Source: Candidatus Latescibacterota bacterium (GTDB taxonomy: Bacteria; JAAXHH01; JABIQT01). From it: 7,273 bases of DNA. Positions 1,314 to 7,273 of the stretch are shown in pieces. A program made the position numbers and the translations under genes. Every line of letters begins with the position of its first letter. Within the stretch, counting starts at the first letter, position 1. The notes below the pieces were generated by a model. It was not told the origin of the DNA. It was given only the letters and a program-made list of their open reading frames with translations, and made no database searches. The stretch is taken from positions 1 through 7,273 of the forward strand of contig JABIQT010000212.1 in assembly GCA_018667995.1 (NCBI GenBank), in the 5' to 3' direction.

Positions 1314-2618
1314 CTACTCCATCTTTTCAAAAACCTGATGTAGCAGCGCAGTAATGTGCGAACAGAACACCTGCCCGGCCTCTTCCGCAAATTCCAGATG
1401 ACGACATAGCCTCGGCGCCGCCACGGCTGCATACCATCCAAAGCCCTCCTGCCGAAAATCCTGGGGCCGGGCAAGGTACCCGACGGCCTCATTGGCATAC
1501 CCGACTAACATCGTGTGCGCGAATGGTGAGGCCTCTCGAATGATATTACCAAATTCCAGAAACAACTCCAATGGGTGAGCCACAAGAACAGCGTCGTTAA
1601 TCTGAAGATACGACACCTGGATCTCTTTCCGCTCAGGATGGGAACCCTCGAGCAACTCCAGACGGAGCTTTCGCCATTCGCTCTCGTAGACCAGGTTCTT
1701 GTACACGGTAGAATCGGGATTTCCGTCGAAGTCAGCCAAAGCTCTATCACTCGCCTCCAATTCCAGCTCCAGAGAACCCCGCTCCGGAACCTGCATCGGT
1801 AGGGCCACTTCAAACGAATCGCCGGATAGTCTCACATCAGAGAACGTGGATACATCATCCAATCCTGGCAGAATGGCGTCCATCAGCAGCGATCCATTGG
1901 CTTTCATGGTTGCGATATCACTACCGAATCCCCGGCAGTTCAAGTTTCCGCAACTGCCCTGGAAGAACAGAATACGGGCCCTCTCATTCAGCGCCTGCTC
2001 CATTTTCGCGACACCGTCACCTACATAGTCTCCGCATACATGACTCGTGGCCCCCAGTGTAACTGGGTGTGCACTGAAGTTTACCACCCCCGCCCGCATG
2101 ACCCCAGCCATATCATCGATCCGGATCAGGCTGGCCGATTCTTCAACGGGTCCGTCGTCCTCCACTCGGTTGACAGACAACTCGGGTACAGGCACCTGGC
2201 TGAAACCGATCCGGCCAGGGATCATGTTCCCGATCGCTTCTCCGATGGCTTCTACAAACAAGCTGGGAAGCGTGTCAGCGTAAGCCTGGTCCCACTCTCC
2301 CCATGCCACAGTGCGCATGGTAGCAGGACCAGAATGGGTGTGCGTATTTGTGATCACGATCCTGGAGGCGTCAAGACCGTAGGCAGATCGGGCTAATCTG
2401 TAAGTTTCTTCCAGAATCGATCTGTCTAGCCAAATCAGATCGTTTGACAGCCAGATGAATACGGTCCCCCCGGCCGTCGAAAGGGCCAGTGCTGTACATT
2501 GGAGATCTTGGATGACCTCCGTACCTTTACGTTCCCGGTATGGACCATAGCCGCACAGTTCGATACCCAGCGGCGGGGTTATGACACGCCGTCCCAGTCC
2601 AAACAGCAGTTGCCCCAT
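1314..2618 (-). CDS. Neutral/alkaline non-lysosomal ceramidase-domain protein, probably not a true ceramidase
   Basis: 434 aa resembling the N-terminal catalytic domain of neutral/alkaline ceramidases (Pfam PF04734), without the C-terminal Ig-like domain of true ceramidases (about 650-700 aa). The metal site is recognisable: NTHTHSGP (91-98, including HxH), NFSAHPVTL (180-188, H184), E351 in HPLELFLEFG, and Y381 in NEAVGYL, matching the His/His/Glu/Tyr zinc ligands of the family. The loop carrying the nucleophilic serine (GDVSPN in characterised enzymes) reads GNLNCR here (224-229), with Asn at the serine position. The N-terminus (MGQLLFGLGRRVITPP) begins directly with the conserved strand and has no signal peptide, so the protein is probably cytoplasmic. 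A metal-dependent hydrolase of unknown substrate is the safe reading. The start is supported by GGAGG 9 nt upstream (2628-2632). It lies 125 nt downstream of the dehydrogenase gene and may share its transcript. Confidence 0.85.
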   Translation of the reverse strand: MGQLLFGLGRRVITPPLGIELCGYGPYRERKGTEVIQDLQCTALALSTAGGTVFIWLSNDLIWLDRSILEETYRLARSAYGLDASRIVITNTHTHSGPATMRTVAWGEWDQAYADTLPSLFVEAIGEAIGNMIPGRIGFSQVPVPELSVNRVEDDGPVEESASLIRIDDMAGVMRAGVVNFSAHPVTLGATSHVCGDYVGDGVAKMEQALNERARILFFQGSCGNLNCRGFGSDIATMKANGSLLMDAILPGLDDVSTFSDVRLSGDSFEVALPMQVPERGSLELELEASDRALADFDGNPDSTVYKNLVYESEWRKLRLELLEGSHPERKEIQVSYLQINDAVLVAHPLELFLEFGNIIREASPFAHTMLVGYANEAVGYLARPQDFRQEGFGWYAAVAAPRLCRHLEFAEEAGQVFCSHITALLHQVFEKME

Positions 2619-2645
2619 TATTCCTACCCTCCCGGAGTTGTTGCT

Positions 2646-2744
2646 TCACCGAAGTCCAGGTACCGTATCTTCATCAAAGACCGCCTGTACTTCAATACCC
2701 GCAAGGTAGTTCGGAAGCATTGAAGAACAGATTGACCTATACAT
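2646..2744 (-). other. Possible 32-codon small ORF overlapping the dehydrogenase stop (TGATG)
   Basis: The gap between the dehydrogenase and ceramidase-like genes holds an ORF of 32 codons whose ATG (2744-2742) shares its A with the dehydrogenase TGA, a typical arrangement for translational coupling. It begins MYRSICSSMLPNYLAG, has an acidic stretch (FDEDT) near the end and stops at 2648-2646. There is no visible Shine-Dalgarno and no recognised domain. The dehydrogenase frame itself also stays open past its stop to a TAG at 2626-2624, so open frames in this gap may be chance. Reported as a candidate only. Confidence 0.15.
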
Positions 2745-3766
2745 CAGGCTATTTCGATCGTTTGACCGGTACGAACTGATTCAGACTCTTTCAAACAGAT
2801 CATCAAGGAATTACGGGCAGACTCGCCGGAGAGAACGACAGGTTCCTCATTGTTCTCCAAGCAGTTCACGGCATAGGATATTTCTGCCGTAAAGGCCTCC
2901 GGATAGTCGAGTTCTGGTGTTTCCTTGCCCTCCGTAGTGTAGAGCGTCACGGGTAAGCCTGAGAGGGAATTGAACCACAGCGTCCCTTCCTCGAAGTAGG
3001 CGTCGTAACCATGCTCGAACATCAGACCGGAGGTACCGATAGAACCGCTCTGTGCGGTGACCGTAAAGTCCTTTCCCTCGTAACCATACTGGGTCGACAC
3101 ATAAAGAACGTACCCATTAGGACTCACCATACCAGATGAATGGACACGATCAGGCATGCCCAGTACATACTGCACAAAATCGGTATCGTGGATGTGAAGA
3201 TCTATGCCTGCAGCGCCAGTCTCTTCGTATTTGGTGAACCAGTCGCTGCTACCCCACAAGGGTTTTGAGATCACGCGCTTGAGATGCAGGCCGAGAAAAC
3301 GGCCGTATCTGTTATCATCGACTACGTCCTTCAGGAAGGCAAATTCGGGGAAGTAGCGCAACACCTGAGCAACCATGAGATGTCTACCGGCGGCCTTTGC
3401 GGCGGCCACCATTTCGTCCGCCTGGTCCAGCTTTAGGGCGATGGGTTTTTCCAGCAATACGTGCTTGCCGGCTGCAAAAGCCCTCATGGTTACGTCATAG
3501 TGCATGCCGGTAGGCAAACAGATGTCTATCATATCAACCTTGGGGTCGGCGAGAATGTCATCGATCTCCCGGTAAGTACCGATTGTACTGAGGTCCTGGA
3601 TGCCTCCTCCTGAACCAAAATTCCCTTTAATATCCTGCCAGTCTCCGCCGAGCTTCTTCTCGTCGCGGGTACAGATGGCGACTACTTGCGCATCGGGAAT
3701 ATCCTTTATTGCCGCGAAATGCGTCGTACCCATGAAACCGATCCCTATAATACCGATTCCTACCAT
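2744..3766 (-). CDS. Gfo/Idh/MocA family NAD(P)-dependent oxidoreductase
   Basis: 340-aa cytoplasmic dehydrogenase, of normal length for the family, which usually oxidises or reduces sugars, inositols or related polyols. The N-terminal Rossmann fold (about 1-125) shows GIIGIGFMG (5-13, GxGxxG dinucleotide loop) and the signature EKP (106-108), whose Lys is catalytic in the family. The C-terminal alpha/beta domain carries GIDLHIHDTDF (187-197), with D189 and H193 at the usual DxxxH active-site positions. The end, TGQTIEI, is typical of the family, so the TGA is probably the natural stop. The start is firm: AGGAGG (3773-3778) sits 6 nt before the ATG. It follows modC by 30 nt, suggesting co-transcription. 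The substrate cannot be assigned; the family varies widely at the substrate pocket. 'MocA' in the family name refers to rhizopine catabolism, so it is not evidence for a molybdenum role. Confidence 0.9.
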   Translation of the reverse strand: MVGIGIIGIGFMGTTHFAAIKDIPDAQVVAICTRDEKKLGGDWQDIKGNFGSGGGIQDLSTIGTYREIDDILADPKVDMIDICLPTGMHYDVTMRAFAAGKHVLLEKPIALKLDQADEMVAAAKAAGRHLMVAQVLRYFPEFAFLKDVVDDNRYGRFLGLHLKRVISKPLWGSSDWFTKYEETGAAGIDLHIHDTDFVQYVLGMPDRVHSSGMVSPNGYVLYVSTQYGYEGKDFTVTAQSGSIGTSGLMFEHGYDAYFEEGTLWFNSLSGLPVTLYTTEGKETPELDYPEAFTAEISYAVNCLENNEEPVVLSGESARNSLMICLKESESVRTGQTIEIA

Positions 3767-3796: not shown

Positions 3797-4858
3797 CTAC
3801 TGACAAATGAAGGCTTTATTGCGCTTGAGAGCGACGCGAACGGTATCTCCTTGCTTGATATGATGTTGCTTGCAGTGGTGTTCATCCAGGTCCATTACCA
3901 GAGAGAAATCTCCATCTGGACTGTGACCATTGAGGTGAATCTGGTTAGTCACTACCGACCTGATGATCCGATGAACGGTGGCCACCAATTCATTCTCGCG
4001 TCGTGAGTCAGTAACAACGAGGCGTACATCGACTGCACGAATCCCAAGCCAGGCACTGTCTCCTGGCTCACAACGCGCGTCGTCGTCCACCACGAAATCA
4101 AGGCCCTGGAATTCTACTATAATCGCGCCATCAAGTCTCGATTTGACACGACAGGGCATCAGATTCTGGACACCCAGAAGTTCAGCGGTGACGCGCTTCC
4201 GCGGCCGTGCAAACAATTCGAGCGCATCATAGCTCTCGACGACATGCCCCTCATCCATGACGATAAGCCGATCTGCCAGGGCAAATGCCTCACTGATGCT
4301 ATGAGTTACGACGAGAATCGGCATCTCCGTCTGTTCCTTAACGCGGAGCAGATCTGATTGAAACTGAGTGCGCACCCCGGCATCCAGTGCAGAGAATGGT
4401 TCGTCCATTAAGAGAGCACGGGGATTCGACGCAAGACTACGTGCCAGGGATACACGCTGCTGTTGTCCTCCCGAAATCTCACGCGGGTATCTGGAGAGCA
4501 GGCTATCAATTTCGAACCGGGCAACGAGATCCGATATATCCGACTGATGGTCGGTCCCATAGCGAATATTGGCATCAACTGTAAGATGTGGAAATAGACT
4601 CGGTTGCTGAAAAATGTACCCGACCTCGCGTTCATAGGATGGAAGCGATAGGCCGGCACCTGCATCGAAGAAGACAGAATCATCAAGCGCTATACGCCCT
4701 CGATCCGGATCGATCAACCCCGATATCATCCCGAGAGTCGTAGTTTTGCCACAGCCTGACCTGCCGAATAAAACGGTTATTCCCGACTCGACTTCGATGT
4801 CGAGAGAAATGACAAACCCGCTTGCGAACTGTTTTGTAAGCTGATGAATCTTCAGCAT
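3797..4858 (-). CDS. modC: Molybdate ABC transporter, ATP-binding protein ModC
   Basis: 353-aa ATPase that powers the ModB permease at the inner membrane. The ABC domain (about 1-220) has Walker A GRSGCGKTT (32-40), the Q-loop YIFQQ (81-85), a signature close to canonical ISGGQQQR (128-135), Walker B ALLMDEP (148-154) with catalytic E153, a D-loop SALD (156-159), and switch H186 in VVTHS. From about 222 to the end lies a TOBE/MOP-like regulatory domain (starting TAELLGVQNLMPCRV), which in ModC proteins can bind oxyanion. The length matches ModC (about 350 aa). Related importers such as sulfate CysA or Fe3+ FbpC share this layout; the modA and modB neighbours decide the call, and tungstate remains possible as ligand. 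The ATG lies 21 nt after the modB stop; no strong Shine-Dalgarno is visible, so translation may depend on modB. Confidence 0.93.
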   Translation of the reverse strand: MLKIHQLTKQFASGFVISLDIEVESGITVLFGRSGCGKTTTLGMISGLIDPDRGRIALDDSVFFDAGAGLSLPSYEREVGYIFQQPSLFPHLTVDANIRYGTDHQSDISDLVARFEIDSLLSRYPREISGGQQQRVSLARSLASNPRALLMDEPFSALDAGVRTQFQSDLLRVKEQTEMPILVVTHSISEAFALADRLIVMDEGHVVESYDALELFARPRKRVTAELLGVQNLMPCRVKSRLDGAIIVEFQGLDFVVDDDARCEPGDSAWLGIRAVDVRLVVTDSRRENELVATVHRIIRSVVTNQIHLNGHSPDGDFSLVMDLDEHHCKQHHIKQGDTVRVALKRNKAFICQ

Positions 4859-4879: not shown

Positions 4880-5539
4880 TCAGCGGCCCTTTGATCTCAG
4901 CAACCATTCCGTGGTCAGGATGACGATACCTGAGATAACCGTCAATATCACAGCCAGCGACTGCGCCAATGCGTCTTCACCGGTGGCAAATGCCTCGTAA
5001 ATGGCCAGTGGCATGGTCTGCGTGCGTCCTGGGATATTCCCCGCAATCATCAGGGTAGCACCAAACTCACCGATAGCCCGAGCGAAGCTTAGTATCAAGC
5101 CGCTTACAAGCCCGTTGCGGGCCAGCGGCAGAGTGACTTTCATGAAGGTCGTAATGCGATTTCGCCCCAGCACGTAGGAAGCATGCTCAAAGGCGACAGG
5201 CACATCTAGAAACGCTGCCCGAGCAGCACGTACCATAATGGGGAGGGCTACAACACCACCTGCCAGAGCAGCCCCCTGCCAGGCGAATACGAATGAGAAA
5301 CCGGTCCAATCATATATGAAAGCTCCGAGCAATCCTTTCCTACCTAGAAGCAGAATCAGATAGTAACCCGTAACGGTTGGCGGTAAAATCAAAGGAAGAG
5401 TTACCAGCAGATCAAGGAAAGCACGTCCCGGAAATCGCTTTCTTGCCAGAAGCAGACCCGATGCGGTGCCTACGATACCGACCCAAACGGTCGCAAGTAT
5501 CGACACAAGGAGTGAAAGCTGGAGAGCGTCCCAAATCAT
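4880..5539 (-). CDS. modB: Molybdate ABC transporter, permease ModB
   Basis: Inner-membrane channel subunit of the molybdate importer, 219 aa from the ATG at 5539, against about 225-230 aa for the family. Hydrophobic segments lie at about 8-32, 46-66, 85-107, 143-163 and 192-212. Family hallmarks include FPGRAFLDLLVTLPLILPPTV (36-56), GRKGLLG (66-72), the EAA loop (EHASYVLG, 118-125, followed by VTLPLA) that docks to ModC, and ARAIGEFGATLMIAGNIPGRT (153-173), very close to E. coli ModB. The frame is open upstream to a TTG at 5602, which would give 240 aa and start 15 nt after the modA stop. I prefer the ATG because MIWDALQLSLLVS aligns with normal ModB N-termini and the extra 21 residues are polar and unlike the family. 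Neither start has a clear Shine-Dalgarno. It sits between modA and modC. Confidence 0.92.
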   Translation of the reverse strand: MIWDALQLSLLVSILATVWVGIVGTASGLLLARKRFPGRAFLDLLVTLPLILPPTVTGYYLILLLGRKGLLGAFIYDWTGFSFVFAWQGAALAGGVVALPIMVRAARAAFLDVPVAFEHASYVLGRNRITTFMKVTLPLARNGLVSGLILSFARAIGEFGATLMIAGNIPGRTQTMPLAIYEAFATGEDALAQSLAVILTVISGIVILTTEWLLRSKGR

Positions 5540-5554
5540 GTATATTTTCGAAGG

Positions 5555-5584
5555 TTGGTGTGAAAGATCGTAAGGTCGCACCAA
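5555..5584 (-). repeat. Inverted repeat in the modA-modB gap
   Basis: On the - strand TTGGTG (5584-5579) and CACCAA (5560-5555) form a perfect 6-bp inverted repeat around an 18-nt loop. If modB starts at the ATG at 5539, this lies in a 78-nt leader, where a weak hairpin could affect modB translation or mRNA stability. If modB starts at the TTG at 5602 it is coding sequence. There is no U-tract, so it is not a terminator. It may be chance. Confidence 0.25.
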
Positions 5585-5617
5585 TTTAGGGGGCGATACC
5601 AAGAAGCTTCAATGAGT

Positions 5618-6415
5618 CTATGGGCCGCGGTACTCCGACGGCAGCGCAAAGCCGTGTCCCAACAGCGTCTTTCTTCCAGATGCGCTGAGCAGAAAATCGA
5701 TGAAGTCCTTTGACAACTCAGGAGAGTGGCTATCAGAGACCACAGCGACGGGATACACGATCGGTCGATGCCAGGAAAGATCAGCCTTCTGCATCACTCG
5801 AACATCCGGCGACGATTGCGCGTCCGTACTATAGACTAGGCCTGCCTCAGCTTCGCCGCTGGCCACATACTGCAGGACCTGGCGGGCATTATTTCCGAAT
5901 ACATACTTGCCAGACAAACGATTCCAAAGCCCGAGTTCCCGAAGTACCTCCTCGCAATAGATTCTGACAGGAACTCCCCCGCTACCTAGTGCAATGTGGC
6001 TTATTCTTTGATCGGCCAGATCATCAAAGCCAAAATCGCCACCATCCGGCGGTGCTCGTCCGATCAATACTACGCTATTTCCGGCAAACGTTCGCCGTGT
6101 TTCCGGTAGTATGAGTTGTTGGCCCACAAGGGCATCAAGCTCTGCAACGGAAGCACTCGCGAACAAATCTGCCGGAGCGCCATTTTCCAGCTGGCGCTGG
6201 AGCGAGTTGGAACCCGCAAAATTGAATATTATCTTCACATTGTGTAGCGACTCGAACTCTCGTCCAAGATCCACGAAGACGTCTTTTAGACTTATGGCAG
6301 CAGCAATCACCAACTCAGGTCGTTCCTTGCCTGCCCCTGAGTTGCATGTGATATTGGGGACGGTCGCCGCCAGCACGATCACGAATATGACATAGCGGTT
6401 GACCACAGATGCCAT
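5618..6415 (-). CDS. modA: Molybdate-binding periplasmic protein ModA
   Basis: 265-aa solute-binding protein that captures molybdate (or tungstate) in the periplasm and delivers it to ModBC. An N-terminal export signal is visible (NRY, then hydrophobic VIFVIVLAATV, 9-19). C24 in NITC could be a lipidation site, but Thr before Cys is not a standard lipobox. The mature protein starts with LVIAAAISLKDVF (35-47), the first ligand-binding loop. It continues with FNFAGSNSLQRQLENGAPADLF (64-85), NSVVLIGR (113-120), the GGVPVRIY loop (146-153) and GEAEAGLVYSTDA (187-199), whose Tyr matches the conserved ligand-loop tyrosine. These are all ModA family landmarks. The ATG at 6415 lies 2 nt after the upstream barrel gene's stop, and its Shine-Dalgarno GAGG (6424-6427, 8-nt spacing) is inside that gene. 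Confidence 0.93.
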   Translation of the reverse strand: MASVVNRYVIFVIVLAATVPNITCNSGAGKERPELVIAAAISLKDVFVDLGREFESLHNVKIIFNFAGSNSLQRQLENGAPADLFASASVAELDALVGQQLILPETRRTFAGNSVVLIGRAPPDGGDFGFDDLADQRISHIALGSGGVPVRIYCEEVLRELGLWNRLSGKYVFGNNARQVLQYVASGEAEAGLVYSTDAQSSPDVRVMQKADLSWHRPIVYPVAVVSDSHSPELSKDFIDFLLSASGRKTLLGHGFALPSEYRGP

Positions 6416-6417
6416 TC

Positions 6418-7273
6418 CTAGTACCTCATCTGAACTTGAAACCTGAATCTGGTACGTAAAGTGTTTCGGGTTATCGGTTTGACCAGGAGTGCAGGATCAC
6501 GCCACTCAGTCGCATATGCTGACCACATCAGCTCCACATTCTCCAATGGCTGGTAGTTCAGCGATATGCCACCGCCGTTCTGATTCGTCCGAATGTAATC
6601 TATGTTCGCGAAGACGGTGGCCACGGCATCCGCCTGTACCATGAACCCCTGGATCGCGACCCTCGCCCCACCGATGTTTCGATGGTTTCCGTAGGTCAAC
6701 ATTGCTACCAACCCCTGTCGTTCGTTGGATGCTGCGGGATTGAATGCGTAGTCCAGATTCAGCGTGAATGGACGTTCGTAAACACTACGGGATATCCTAG
6801 CCGAGAGGTTTAGATACCGAAATTCAGAGAGGTATCCGTTTCCCGTCGCGTTCGGCCTATTGGTATTGTTCGTACGGACCCTGCGGGGCGTCAGATTTTC
6901 GGCTACAAAAATAGAGTCCGCGTTGCCTACGCCATAGAGGGCGAGCGCTACCGTGGCTGCCATTCCGGAGCGATTGAATTCACCGACAATCTGCCCGCCA
7001 AGAAAATAGGTCCGAGTTACATCCTTCGTGGATGAAAGGGGCTGATTGATCATAATCTGTGCCAGATTGATTCCCCACGCGGTGCTATTATCGGCATTAG
7101 CAAAACGGAGTTGCTGGGCGAGTCCTTCATGAGGTATATCATTGTCGAATACAAGTTGAGTGGACCTGAAAAAGGGGGTAGTAAATTTGCCGCCCCACAA
7201 TGTCACACCAGCAATTGGCACCATTCGCGCAAATAGCCATTGCACGTGAATAGGCTTTTCAGTCATAAAATCA
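6418..7273 (-). CDS. Outer-membrane porin-like beta-barrel, 5' end beyond the window
   Basis: C-terminal part of an outer-membrane beta-barrel. The frame is open to the window edge; the Met at 7266 is probably internal, because there is no signal peptide and the visible sequence begins in barrel strands. The 284 visible residues alternate polar and hydrophobic (for example VQWLFARMVP and RFRFQVQMRY) and end in Tyr after an aromatic-rich strand, as expected for a BAM-recognised C-terminus. The stretch LWGGKFTTPFF then DNDIPHEGLAQQLRF (about 23-55 from that Met) resembles the GKF...PEGLA pattern of 'putative porin' (Porin_5-like) proteins. The rest is typical of barrel strands separated by Asn/Gly-rich turns. 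The stop TAG lies 2 nt before modA, so the two are almost certainly cotranscribed. A role in oxyanion passage across the outer membrane is inferred from position only. The operon promoter must lie beyond 7273. Confidence 0.75.
   Translation of the reverse strand, partial: DFMTEKPIHVQWLFARMVPIAGVTLWGGKFTTPFFRSTQLVFDNDIPHEGLAQQLRFANADNSTAWGINLAQIMINQPLSSTKDVTRTYFLGGQIVGEFNRSGMAATVALALYGVGNADSIFVAENLTPRRVRTNNTNRPNATGNGYLSEFRYLNLSARISRSVYERPFTLNLDYAFNPAASNERQGLVAMLTYGNHRNIGGARVAIQGFMVQADAVATVFANIDYIRTNQNGGGISLNYQPLENVELMWSAYATEWRDPALLVKPITRNTLRTRFRFQVQMRY
6424..6427 (-). promoter_or_regulatory. modA Shine-Dalgarno embedded in the end of the porin gene
   Basis: The - strand reads GATGAGGTACTAGGAATG. 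GAGG lies 8 nt before the modA ATG and inside the last codons of the barrel gene, and the barrel's TAG is 2 nt before the ATG. Ribosomes ending the porin can re-initiate directly on modA, which supports translational coupling and the modA start at 6415. Confidence 0.7.

Follow-up and report, generated by a model that had tools for sequence, protein, structure and literature searches.

The molybdate locus

The window, by which we mean the whole stretch of DNA analysed here (7273 bp), is one entire contig (G000:C582) of a draft genome. Reading inward from the contig end on the minus strand, it carries the gene of an outer-membrane porin-like barrel whose start is missing, followed by modA, modB, modC, a gene for a Gfo/Idh/MocA oxidoreductase and a ceramidase-like gene, and an RlmD-type methyltransferase gene converges on this cluster from the opposite side (Table 1). 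Because the contig ends at position 7273, the 5′ end of the barrel gene is absent: the reading frame is open at about 7272–7273, and by comparison with full-length relatives some 70–100 residues of the protein are lost. The junction between barrel and modA reads ...CAG ATG AGG TAC TAG GA ATG, with the barrel stop (TAG) at 6420–6418 and the modA start (ATG) at 6415–6413, such that exactly 2 nt (GA) separate the two genes and the best Shine-Dalgarno sequence of modA, GAGG, lies inside the barrel gene. Both features had been read in the same way in the first-pass annotation.

Table 1. Features of the window (7273 bp) and the evidence on which each assignment rests
Feature	Position	Strand	Basis
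Porin_5 barrel gene, 3′ part, 284 aa	6418..7273	-	ORF; PF16930; 42-45% identity to full-length relatives; 16-strand model of G013 relative
GAGG Shine-Dalgarno of modA	6424..6427	-	junction sequence; within last barrel codons, 8 nt before ATG
modA, molybdate-binding protein	5618..6415	-	TIGR01256; best solved relatives 4kd5, 1amf
modB permease	4880..5602	-	TIGR02141
modC-like ABC ATPase	3797..4858	-	best match TIGR02142, under cut-off
Gfo/Idh/MocA oxidoreductase	2744..3766	-	30 nt after modC; cluster neighbour conserved in relatives
Neutral/alkaline ceramidase-like protein	1314..2618	-	cluster neighbour conserved in relatives

The window ModA passes its family cut-off clearly (159 bits, cut-off 62.5), its best solved relatives being molybdate-binding proteins, and ModB passes as well (219 bits, cut-off 182.6). 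The modC product matches its best family over nearly the full length, with 226 bits vs a cut-off of 285, and gave no Pfam match for a TOBE domain; it is a ModC-like ATPase by context. The listed start of modB (TTG 5602) is probably too early, since the protein of the relative G011 starts at MWDAL, which would place the true start at about 5539 (MIWDAL...). The ModA proteins of two relatives, G011 (L173:1172-1984) and G013 (L025:9650-10519), carry a lipoprotein-type signal (FSGC and LVAC, respectively) and may therefore be membrane-anchored.

Pairing of barrel and binding protein within the order

The sample of the order comprised 13 genomes with a barrel 42-45% identical to that of the window, the genome G011, of which only the last barrel residues are visible at a contig start, and the window itself, that is, 15 barrel genomes; in G001, the remaining sampled genome of the order, no barrel was found. 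A search of the genome contigs with the single barrel protein of the window returned 0 matches, and one with the barrel alignment returned 11. Those relatives that bear names are metagenome-assembled genomes assigned to Candidatus Latescibacterota or Gemmatimonadetes, or listed as uncultured bacterium, and to judge from their isolate names they are marine or sponge-associated. The window most likely stems from a similar organism.

The gene directly after the barrel encodes a molybdate- or tungstate-binding protein in 15/15 of these genomes, and because of this recurrence the arrangement in the window is not due to chance. The first-pass annotation had proposed to check whether the adjacency of porin and modA recurs in relatives, and had named homologues lying mostly beside unrelated genes as the observation that would speak against it; the next gene belongs to the molybdate/tungstate type in every case. 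The partner, however, is usually not modA. In 12 of the 15 genomes, all of one genus, the order is barrel-tupA, with Gfo/Idh and ceramidase-like genes next on those contigs that extend far enough, and no modA was found in these 12 (11 searched together, G015 in another search). G013 shows the order barrel-tupA-modA-modB-modC-Gfo/Idh-ceramidase, and G011 shows barrel-tupA-modA, with modB-modC-Gfo/Idh on a different contig. Barrel-modA without an intervening tupA is confined to the window among the 15 genomes. The proposed coupling thus stands as a conserved link to molybdate- or tungstate-binding proteins but not as one specific to modA.

The tupA product of the relatives is TupA-like and short of a certified TupA: NF041772, its sole family match, scored 237 bits vs an equivalog cut-off of 400, and its best solved relative is the tungstate-binding protein 3lr1 (292 bits). 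In the tupA-only genomes, tupB and an adjoining ABC ATPase gene occupy a separate locus; a TupB match is present in 11/11 of those sampled, and no second tupA was found. Where both loci reside on one contig (G002, G007, G012), they are 54–61 kb apart. The location of tupBC elsewhere, while the barrel keeps tupA, implies that the porin gene is kept with the binding protein and not with the rest of the transporter. Examples of the tupBC loci are L062 and L065, and of the barrel-tupA loci L035 and L028. The presence of moaC in 10/11 sampled tupA-only genomes indicates that these organisms make molybdenum cofactor. The window's own genome holds a lone tupA elsewhere (L172:1277-2083, G000:C77); no TupB was found in this genome, which is only 85% complete.

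Gfo/Idh and ceramidase-like genes trail the tup/mod cluster across the order (window 1314-3766; L025 to L037). Further on in G013 there is a type I phosphodiesterase-like gene, with related proteins in most other genomes of the order.

Promoter-like site and regulation

A sigma70-type site, TTGACA-N17/18-TAnnAT, is found 130–171 nt upstream of the barrel start in 13/13 loci, and such a site appeared in at most 0.6% of trials with shuffled sequence. Since this promoter-like site is conserved upstream of the barrel, the transcription unit most likely begins at the porin gene. The upstream region is not contained in the window, and the scan for ModE rests on relatives: among 8 of them no good match was found, the best having 6 mismatches to an E. 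coli-like consensus with 19 fixed bases. No molybdenum-cofactor riboswitch or other Rfam RNA was detected, either in the window or around the barrel of those relatives that were searched, the only Rfam matches in that search being two tRNAs in L043. The relatives thus offer nothing in favour of the ModE site or riboswitch that had been envisaged upstream of the barrel.

Barrel family and structural model

The window barrel passes the Pfam gathering cut-off of 22 for Porin_5 (PF16930) with 28.4 bits, the match covering only part of the profile (225-271); the barrels of G013 and G014 reach 32.1 and 40.9 bits. In Pfam this family bears only the name 'putative porin'. Barrels of this order gave no Pfam match to the OprO/OprP family, Porin_5 being the only family listed (at maximum E values of 1 and 0.5), and a sequence search for a solved structure related to the barrel family found none. 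The low-confidence model of the G013 barrel (pLDDT 63, pTM 0.67) has 16 strands and matches the folds of OmpM1 (Z 22.7), OprB (20.4), OprP (20.2), OprO (20.0) and the general porins (≈ 18). This model supports a porin-type outer-membrane barrel, short of proof, but it does not indicate selectivity, because the model is modest and its likeness to general porins is almost as close as that to OprP. Conserved residues of the barrel include R14, R16, K99, R210 and R346 (G013 mature numbering), and the loop region of the model is of low confidence. Net charge was considered as a sign of oxyanion selectivity, the barrels linked to molybdate/tungstate genes looking more basic than those linked to pst, and was set aside: it is not evidence here, because the molybdate/tungstate rows come mostly from one clade and the pst-linked barrels average net acidic.

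Porin_5 genes beyond the order

Porin_5 was present in 46/384 genomes sampled, and 49 loci outside the window clade were annotated. An oxyanion-type ABC importer or its binding protein accompanies the porin gene at 35 of these 49 loci, the partner being phosphate in 30, molybdate/tungstate in 3, sulfate in 1 and a phosphonate type in 1, with none at the remaining 14. In a control set of TolC-family loci, 0/30 showed a binding protein of this kind within 1.5 kb. The pst-linked layout is typically phoB-phoR-porin-pstS-pstC-pstA-pstB-phoU. The three molybdate/tungstate loci are modABC-porin in G020 (L043), porin-modA-permease-ATPase in G224 (L102), and in G328 (L082:4743-9313, C9) a Porin_5 gene, a small LysR-type HTH gene and wtpA-wtpB-wtpC, with WtpA above the TIGR03730 cut-off. 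The HTH gene is tentatively ModE-like, by position and by the start of its sequence, and is a putative regulator of a tungstate system that includes a porin. In G057 one Porin_5 gene lies beside a sulfate importer (L044) and a close paralogue beside a phosphate importer (L039), a natural pair in which to look for residues that set oxyanion preference. The Porin_5 gene of G219 (L116:4368-6347) adjoins the gene of a phosphonate-type binding protein (PF12974, 207 bits), and no other importer genes were recognised near it. The second Porin_5 gene of G011 (L038:5952-10555) precedes pstS and the gene of a PstC-like permease of 752 aa whose N-terminal region is WD40/propeller-like.

In a tree of 54 barrels, unrooted and built by a quick method, the molybdate/tungstate label needs 4 changes (7.7 in shuffles), of which branches with strong support require at least 3; on this tree, coupling to molybdate/tungstate genes would have arisen separately at least three times. 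The barrel linked to Wtp has a nested position next to pst-linked ones, and L044, linked to sulfate, is sister to the pst-linked L039 of the same genome. The clade of the window stands apart on a long branch (1.43, support 100*) and has no pst-linked member. The quick tree method leaves the deep forks uncertain, and since the tree is unrooted the direction of partner change is not proven; its plain reading would be that a porin family linked to phosphate has repeatedly been taken up by importers of other oxyanions.

Coupling to molybdate/tungstate genes is rare, and Mod systems mostly lack a Porin_5 partner: of about 97 modA matches across 288 genomes, 5 are known from this survey to be linked to Porin_5 (G000, G011, G013, G020, G224). 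At the 30 modA loci with the highest scores, no Porin_5 gene lies within 1.5 kb, flanks that miss layouts such as that of G020, with the porin after modC. Among 29 tupA loci, Porin_5 linkage occurs only in those of the window's order.

Relation to known systems

The nearest counterparts of the window clade are the Porin_5 genes of the pst operons in this survey, which likewise pass the family cut-off and stand directly upstream of an oxyanion-binding protein gene; the window clade differs by its molybdate/tungstate partner in place of Pst and by its separate long branch. The Pseudomonas porins OprP and OprO (phosphate/polyphosphate) resemble the modelled 16-strand fold (Z about 20) and illustrate the same principle, a porin for an oxyanion that serves an importer with a binding protein, OprP being a 16-strand phosphate-specific porin (PMC4849052), while the barrel differs in Pfam family (Porin_5 only) and in the oxyanion. 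From classical ModABC the cluster takes the order modA-modB-modC and the families, and it adds the barrel, no dedicated outer-membrane part being described there; molybdate is said to reach the periplasm by diffusing through porins (PMC8264917). For the T6SS-ModA-IcmP system of Pseudomonas aeruginosa, a dedicated partner in the outer membrane has been described for molybdate (PMC8602904); there ModA is secreted by the type VI system, the partner, IcmP, is described as an insulin-cleaving metalloproteinase, and no porin takes part. TupABC and WtpABC are represented by the tupA that adjoins the barrel in 14 genomes and by the wtpABC beside Porin_5 in G328, and differ here by the porin partner and by the separation of tupA from tupBC. 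The open literature yielded no report of a molybdate/tungstate porin or of PF16930 by name; most subscription journals lay outside its scope, so that absence is not proven.

Proposed function

We consider it probable, though by no means assured, that the barrel serves molybdate/tungstate uptake as the entry pore in the outer membrane and is made together with TupA and/or ModA. The sigma70-type promoter before the barrel would drive one transcript with the porin gene in front, tupA and/or modA behind it, and modBC in some cases; the 16-strand Porin_5 barrel, placed in the outer membrane, would admit MoO4(2-)/WO4(2-) to the periplasm; and the co-made binding protein would trap the oxyanion and pass it on, either to ModBC or to a TupBC whose genes lie at another locus. 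A route for 'molybdate or tungstate', as first suggested, fits the partners, tupA being the commoner; the barrel itself is no novel kind of protein, being a Porin_5 member, and in this survey that family is mostly met in pst operons. The link is real and conserved, but it is no invention specific to modA: the barrel forms a molybdate/tungstate branch of a porin family linked mostly to phosphate. The further idea that Porin_5 is a modular outer-membrane part of oxyanion importers which passed on several occasions from phosphate operons to those for molybdate/tungstate (and sulfate), and that the barrel is the first dedicated, selective channel for molybdate/tungstate, is put forward tentatively as a possibility that deserves to be entertained.

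The main rival is an unselective porin under the same control, that is, a general anion or small-solute porin which raises outer-membrane permeability on oxyanion starvation and leaves specificity to the binding protein alone. It agrees with the fold match to OmpF/OmpC and OprB, nearly as good as that to OprP, with the occurrence of close Porin_5 paralogues in different operons, as in the sisters L044 (sulfate) and L039 (phosphate), and with the 14/49 Porin_5 genes that have no importer nearby. Yet the retention of the barrel beside a molybdate/tungstate-binding protein gene in every barrel genome of the order is tighter than such a role would need, and trace molybdate alone would presumably seldom justify a general porin; on balance we regard an unselective porin as a serious but somewhat doubtful reading.

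Two further explanations detach the barrel from its neighbour. It might serve the Gfo/Idh, ceramidase-like and phosphodiesterase cluster, for example in lipid or organophosphate use, with its position a matter of inherited gene order. The trailing genes do accompany the cluster in most genomes of the order, even where modABC is missing, but Porin_5 meets molybdate/tungstate importers at L043, L082 and L102, where those neighbours were not seen, and oxyanion importers stand at 35 of the 49 outside loci, which makes this explanation unlikely. Even less probable, and in our judgement very unlikely, is a leftover phosphate porin from a pst operon that still passes mainly phosphate and does not serve the molybdate/tungstate genes: the predominance of pst-linked members in the family (30/49) and the separate pst-linked paralogue of G011 (L038) would suit it, whereas the length and distinctness of the window clade, without pst-linked members, argue against it.

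The crossing of the outer membrane by molybdate and tungstate is usually ascribed to unspecific diffusion through porins, and a conserved porin coupled to molybdate/tungstate-binding proteins offers a specific candidate, open to test, for a route dedicated to them. For Porin_5 as a family, the survey suggests a working function in oxyanion uptake. In this little-known bacterial group, the consistency of the pairing suggests that the barrel may be a purpose-built outer door for molybdate and tungstate.
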